This document shows positions 60,816 to 62,304 of a stretch of 64,000 bases of DNA, in pieces (positions within the stretch are counted from its first letter, which is position 1; the number at the start of each line of letters is the position of its first letter). The stretch comes from Thermocrinis minervae. GTDB taxonomy: Bacteria; Aquificota; Aquificia; Aquificales; Aquificaceae. The translations under genes and the position numbers were made by a program. The notes below the pieces were generated by a model. The model searched no databases, was not told the origin of the DNA, and saw nothing but the letters and a program-made list of their open reading frames with translations. Location of the stretch: positions 372,001-436,000 of the forward strand of contig NZ_LT670846.1 of NCBI RefSeq assembly GCF_900142435.1, given 5' to 3'.

Positions 60816-60861
60816 CTTTTATAATAGTTTTAGCGTTACTTTTTTGAAAGGAGGGAATAGT

Positions 60862-61254
60862 ATGTGGAGGTTTCTAAGAAATAGGCTGTTGGTGTTTTCT
60901 ATACTTGGATGGTTCACCTTCTTCGTTGGCTCACCTGCCATGGCTGGGTTGGTAGAGTCAAAAGCTCCTGACCAAATTAGCAACTACAACAGGGATGAAG
61001 ACATAAACAAGATAAGAAGGGCTCTTGAAAACAAGCTCGTACAGGAGAAGCTAAAAGCCTACGGCCTTACAAAGGAAGAGGTAGAGAAGAAGCTTTCTGA
61101 AATGAACGACGAGCAGATACGTATGCTTGCCAGTGCATCGGACAAGCTCTTGGCAGGTGGAGATGGCCTTGGTGTAGTGGTAACAGTGCTTGTAATACTT
61201 ATACTCCTCGTGATACTCCTTAAGCTTCTCAACAAAGAAATAATCATAAGGTGA
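60862..61254 (+). CDS. PA2779-family exported/membrane protein
   Basis: 130 residues from ATG 60862 (MWRFLRNRLLVFS), with GAAAGGAGGGAA as Shine-Dalgarno; the TTG at 60844 is rejected. Signal-like helix LLVFSILGWFTFFVGSPAMA, a charged middle (DEDINKIRRALENKLVQEKLKAYGLTKEEVEKKL) and a C-terminal membrane helix (GVVVTVLVILILLVILLKLL). Layout and the partner gene fit the PA2779 family, which pairs with PA2778 cysteine peptidase. TATAAT at 60820-60825. Confidence 0.8.
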   Translation: MWRFLRNRLLVFSILGWFTFFVGSPAMAGLVESKAPDQISNYNRDEDINKIRRALENKLVQEKLKAYGLTKEEVEKKLSEMNDEQIRMLASASDKLLAGGDGLGVVVTVLVILILLVILLKLLNKEIIIR

Positions 61255-61724
61255 TCCTCCTTCTCCTCCTGCCTTTCCTTTTTTCTTTTAAACTCCTTGA
61301 TGTTCCTTTTGTAAAGCAAGAGAAAGACTTCTGCGGGCCCTCTGCCCTGAGCAGCGTACTGGCCTACTATGGAATACACAAAAGTCAGCAGGAGATAGCC
61401 AAGTACGTCTACATACCGGCTCTAAAGGGAGCTCTTATAACAGACCTTGAGAACTACGCCAAAAGCTTAGGCCTAAGGACAGAGCTTTTCCAGGGTAGCT
61501 TAGAAAATATAAAGGAACAGATAGACAAAGGACATCCGGTCATACTGTTGGTAGACCTGGGTAACGCCTTTGTGAGCGTACCCCACTACTTGGTGGTCAT
61601 AGGTTACGATGAAAACTACTTTTATGTACATACTGGGTACAAACCAAGGGAAAAGATGAGCTACCAAGAACTTTACCGGATCTGGTCAAAGATGGGAAGG
61701 GTAGCCTTGGTGGTCTACCCATGA
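61251..61724 (+). CDS. C39-like cysteine peptidase, PA2778 family
   Basis: A 157-residue protein (GTG start inside the previous stop). Signal-like [13 protein letters not shown], then [23 protein letters not shown] with catalytic Cys, [20 protein letters not shown] with the His and the Asp, the C39-like papain fold. Probably acts outside the cytoplasm on a partner; the PA2778/PA2779 pair is often co-located. The selB remnant overlaps its stop by 4 bases. Confidence 0.85.
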
Positions 61725-62304
61725 TCTACGTCCCCATAGGAACGGCTGGACATGTAGACCACGGCAAGACAAGCTTGATAAAAGTCCTTACAGGCATAGA
61801 CACGGATAGGCTGCCTGAGGAGAAGTCCAGGGGTATGAGTATTGACATAGGTTTTGCTTTCTTAGACTTTCCAGAGGAAGGTATAAGGGTTGAATTCATA
61901 GACGTGCCGGGTCATGAAAGCTTTATTAAGAACACCATTTCCTACTGTGGGAAAACTCTCCCCTGTTTGAGGAAACCCAATCCTTCGGCGAGCTTATGAA
62001 CCTCCTCAAAGAACAGATAAGGGAGTATAAGGAGCTTTACGATTACAAGGACATCCTTAGCTACGCCGTACGAAAAGGATACGTGCACAGTCTAGGGAAC
62101 TATCTGTACATAAGCGACGGATTGCTCAGGGACTATGTAAAAAGGTTAAAAGAATTAGGAGAGACCTTTAGTGTGCAGGATGCAAAAAGCGTTTTAGGGC
62201 TGAGTAGAAAGTATCTTATACCCCTCCTTGAGTACCTGGATCGTACAGGAATAATAAGAAGGGAAGGAGATGTAAGGAGGTTCGTAAAAGGCTTTATGCT
62301 ATAA
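61721..62304 (+). pseudogene. selB: SelB (selenocysteine-specific elongation factor) remnant
   Basis: First part: [19 protein letters not shown] (G1), [22 protein letters not shown] (switch I), [12 protein letters not shown] (G3), then a stop at 61999 after an out-of-frame stretch. Second part, another frame, from 61996 (upstream-open): a 102-residue winged-helix end with YVKRLKEL...FSVQDAKSVLGLSRKYLIPLLEYLDRTGIIRREGDVRRF, the RNA-binding C-terminus of SelB. G4/G5, domains II-III and most winged helices are missing (~400-450 residues of a normal ~600). Not functional as a factor; probably lost with selenoprotein use. Its last codons carry the atpG promoter. Confidence 0.85.

Follow-up and report, generated by a model that had tools for sequence, protein, structure and literature searches.

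Probable loss of selB function by internal deletion, and apparent recent decay of selenium use, in Thermocrinis minervae

The selB gene of Thermocrinis minervae, which codes for the elongation factor of selenocysteine (Sec) decoding, has very probably become a pseudogene through one internal, frame-shifting deletion of ~1.15 kb, and the genome appears to have recently lost its whole selenium-use trait; we give this reading a probability of about 0.93. The genome is a single contig of 1,367,821 bp and 100% complete, and the window, i.e. the whole stretch of 64,000 nt that was analysed, covers genome positions 372001–436000. Coordinates below are those of the window unless the genome is named.

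RESULTS

The selB remnant

The region 61721–62304 holds the first ~73 and the last ~120 codons of selB in differing frames, joined near 61939 (Table 1). TIGR00475 matched the 5′ piece at 61736–61945 (genome 433736–433945, model positions 3–70, E = 6.3e-33) and the 3′ piece at 61960–62280 (genome 433960–434280, model positions 469–578, E = 3.7e-19), and such E-values exclude chance. These matches agree with the original prediction that the G1–G3 motifs and the C-terminal part of SelB lie in different frames. The 5′ piece is in frame with the ATG at 61721 and belongs to an ORF of 61721–61999, and the 3′ piece is in another frame, open from 61930, with an ORF that runs from the ATG at 61996 to 62304, this ATG overlapping the TGA of the 5′ ORF.

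Table 1. Features of the selB remnant, in window coordinates
Feature	Position	Strand	Content and basis
5′ selB remnant	61721..61939	+	SelB residues 1 to ~73, GTPase-domain G1–G3; TIGR00475, identity to relatives, start of Pfam GTP_EFTU
selB deletion junction	61936..61960	+	~384 codons (~1.15 kb) gone, frame shifted; exact breakpoint ± some bases
3′ selB remnant	61939..62304	+	final ~120 codons with winged helices three and four; TIGR00475, Pfam, identity to relatives

Upon alignment with 17 intact SelBs, similarity jumps near 61939 from residue ~73 to residue ~458, and therefore ~384 codons have been deleted and the frame has been shifted; the size of the deletion, which the original prediction had left to such an alignment, is thus ~1.15 kb. 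G1–G3 are kept in the 5′ piece, and alignment to relatives confirms that G4, G5 and domains II–III are missing, as had been supposed. Pfam recognised the beginning of GTP_EFTU within the 5′ piece; the 3′ piece matched SelB_WHD3 (E = 1.1e-7) as well as SelB-wing_3 (E = 4.2e-19). Because the third and the last winged helix are both recognised there, two of them survive rather than one, and the earlier statement that three are missing has to be changed to two. A functional SelB has a complete GTPase domain (G1–G5), followed in one frame by domains II–III and four winged helices; here the alignment of the GTPase domain stops at residue ~73, and the two remaining helices are in a different frame. 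With clear similarity, a disrupted coding frame and no other copy, the gene is what is called a pseudogene.

Identity to the intact SelBs of relatives is mostly 69–78% for the 5′ piece and up to 60% for the 3′ piece. The 102-codon ORF of 61996–62304 is open and keeps both winged helices, the ATGA overlap would permit coupled translation, and selD retains a conserved hairpin sequence after its UGA (see below), all of which could be expected if the 3′ piece worked as a small RNA-binding protein, namely a pair of winged helices that binds SECIS on its own. We give this next to no credence: similar truncation has hit selA, fdhA and mnmH, positions invariant among intact SelBs are altered in both pieces (2 of 28 in one, 2 of 19 in the other), and no relative encodes a stand-alone piece among the loci examined.

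Directly 5′ of selB, at 60844–61724, are genes for a DUF6627 protein and a C39-like cysteine peptidase, which overlap one another as well as the start of selB and look like one transcription unit. When neighbourhoods of up to 15–16 kb were compared, the genes flanking selB here were shared by no relative's selB.

selB in the rest of the genome and in relatives

An intact selB elsewhere, named in the original prediction as the finding that would speak against it, was absent from the complete genome in a TIGR00475 search. The other matches, considered as candidates for a second full selB, all scored below the cut-off; two of them are near-identical frames of 406 codons, taken to be EF-Tu, and the rest look like other translation GTPases. 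That relatives keep selB holds for 17 of 60, which carry a full copy and all belong to the same family (Aquificaceae-type). The draft relative G005 (L130, L132) has selA, selC, a UGA-containing selD and a UGA-containing fdhA, yet no selB above the cut-off and no selB remnant in its selA and selC/selD neighbourhoods, which may reflect an assembly gap or a second loss of selB.

A tree built on the selB remnants placed our sequence at a distance of 0.98 from the outgroups, compared with 0.92–1.11 for the intact relatives, a soft bound given how short the remnants are. Since this value lies within the range of the intact genes, most of the remnants' history would have passed under selection, and since the remnants are not accelerated, the deletion looks recent, in line with the recent decay first proposed.

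selA and the client genes

If Sec decoding has decayed, as was originally proposed, damage should also be visible in selA and fdhA, and both are broken. There was no HMM match to selA in the genome, and a protein search for it gave only a stub of residues 1–72 on the minus strand (genome 1095295–1095510) that ends just before the conserved RVINATG motif. Thus the SelA that Sec decoding requires is represented by this 72-codon 5′ stub alone. Where the rest of selA would be expected, a cluster of small genes adjoins the stub (L197 239–1458; G000 near 1094033–1095252). It encodes an LprI-like protein and a secreted, paralogue-like protein whose leader is similar, and it also includes a short fragment resembling the cut start of a phage-type muramidase.

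The search for selenoproteins covered the families SelD and FdhA. In 12 relatives fdhA, coding for Sec formate dehydrogenase, is a UGA selenoprotein gene. Here it is reduced to scraps in two frames, which lie immediately upstream of selC and match residues 98–124, 151–162 and 285–372; the Sec codon, which in relatives is residue 196, lies in a deleted part. For mnmH, the gene for tRNA 2-selenouridine synthase, pieces of residues 20–53 and 105–288 were found with changing frames, a stop and a gap, so that the intact mnmH (ybbB) which the 2-selenouridine trait needs beside a working selD is missing.

Among 12 relatives with Sec machinery that were surveyed for the two clients, all keep fdhA or mnmH: six have both (G004, G008, G010, G018, G021 and G022), three have fdhA without mnmH (G002, G005 and G016), and three have mnmH without fdhA (G007, G013 and G015). 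Unlike these 12, our genome has neither client intact, and its machinery has fallen apart. This pattern, from few genomes of a single tree and with fdhA and mnmH as the clients, fits the view that the Sec machinery persists as long as one client does. In G007, G013 and G015, where the machinery is kept and no TIGR01553 formate dehydrogenase scored above the cut-off, the UGA-containing SelD may be the chief or even the sole selenoprotein, retained to serve mnmH. One genus (G001, G011 and G019; loci L093, L096 and L112) has mnmH, lacks selA, selB and selC, and encodes a SelD without in-frame UGA, the two complete copies having Cys in place of Sec; it is a case of selenouridine use without Sec.

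Lesions at four separate loci also bear on the quality of the assembly. There is a single assembly, the reads of which could not be examined, and an organism with an intact selB could in principle give our sequence by collapse or misjoining, the middle of the gene being lost in assembly. However, the lesions in selA, selB, fdhA and mnmH are independent and differ in kind, the complete genome is in one contig, and the loci read contain no N; thus such an error at selB is very unlikely.

tRNA-Sec and selD

The genome-wide check of sel genes that had been proposed bore out the decay for selA and fdhA, but selC and a UGA-containing selD turned out to be intact. The tRNA-Sec scored 73.6 bits, with anticodon TCA, an 8-bp acceptor stem and a 5-bp T stem, and so supplies the selC that Sec decoding requires. 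Its D stem departs at two positions that do not vary among 18 relatives. The two pair with each other, the change replacing G-C by A-U, so that structural constraint must have acted on this tRNA during some, at least, of the lineage's separate history.

The selD gene has a 341-codon frame interrupted only by UGA at codon 12, a site that is also UGA in Sec relatives, and differs at 2 of 113 otherwise invariant positions, relatives mostly differing at 0–4. Just downstream of the UGA, the hairpin-capable GGTCCGGCGGACC is identical in several relatives; in single-sequence folding of the 60-base selD stretch from our genome, its hairpin was not favoured over other structures, and for this reason we regard it as a putative SECIS. 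With SelA and SelB gone, the UGA can only act as a stop, and translation of selD should end at codon 12. The gene has probably just become untranslatable as the genetic code of the cell shrank.

If selC and selD were still in use, the UGA being decoded by some route without SelA or a full SelB and selection keeping both genes, they would likewise be free of lesions, as they are here in contrast to the four broken genes. We consider such continued use highly improbable, as SelA, the known bacterial enzyme for making Sec-tRNA, is a stub, the 8-bp acceptor stem of tRNA-Sec reportedly disfavours EF-Tu (a result attributed to Baron and Bock, 1991), the genome showed no client for SelD, mnmH being broken, and recent loss accounts more simply for the intactness. 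Genomes with an orphan SelD have been reported, for which an unknown SelD-based trait was proposed (PMC5029168), and these lend the idea of continued use some support.

Order of loss

Several lesions are visible in each client, one each in selA and selB, and none in selC and selD. The clients being more eroded than selA and selB, it is suggested that their loss preceded that of the machinery; this order rests on lesion counts from one genome. The proposed course would begin with decay of fdhA and mnmH, which would leave Sec decoding without purpose; selA would then have been shortened to a 5′ end of 72 codons and the middle of selB would have been lost, tRNA-Sec and selD being spared so far. 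With the UGA of selD acting as a stop, no selenophosphate synthetase and no selenoprotein would be expected, and we strongly infer that no selenoprotein is made.

DISCUSSION

Losses of Sec coding are usually deduced from absence. In this one compact genome, the trait's genes can still be seen, in differing states. Two clients are wrecked, two machinery genes are cut, and tRNA-Sec and the UGA-bearing selD are untouched, side by side, which makes the order of loss testable. Moreover, predictions of tRNA-Sec have been described in the Secmarker paper as a perfect marker for genomes that contain selenoproteins (PMC5330540); our genome is a warning for annotators that an intact tRNA-Sec together with selD is no proof of Sec use.

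Frequent independent loss of the selenium trait is established (PMC1273633, PMC5029168), and orphan SelD genomes (PMC5029168) resemble ours in having selD without any working pathway of selenium use. Unlike in those genomes, selD here has an undecodable UGA and remnants of its partners are recognisable, and thus we read it as a relic of recent origin that does not speak for a new trait. That one sel gene may outlast the rest of the trait is also seen in SelA of Helicobacter pylori after loss of Sec decoding (PMC4607533); there SelA lost its N-terminal region and was kept by selection, whereas here a short N-terminal stub is all that is left of selA.

The closest precedent is found in the 2005 survey of selenium-utilization traits, where Yersinia pestis CO92 and Mediaevalis have a frameshifted selB, keep selA, selC and selD, and carry a UGA-containing formate dehydrogenase gene that cannot be decoded (PMC1273633). 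In both cases selB is broken, other sel genes remain, a UGA gene is undecodable, and the loss is taken to be very recent. The difference is that Y. pestis has a frameshift in selB and retains selA, selC and selD, whereas in our genome selB has a large internal deletion, selA is cut, the clients are wrecked, and only selC and selD are intact. Given this published precedent, T. minervae represents a further, well-preserved instance of a known process, in which more of the partners are visible in the middle of their decay.
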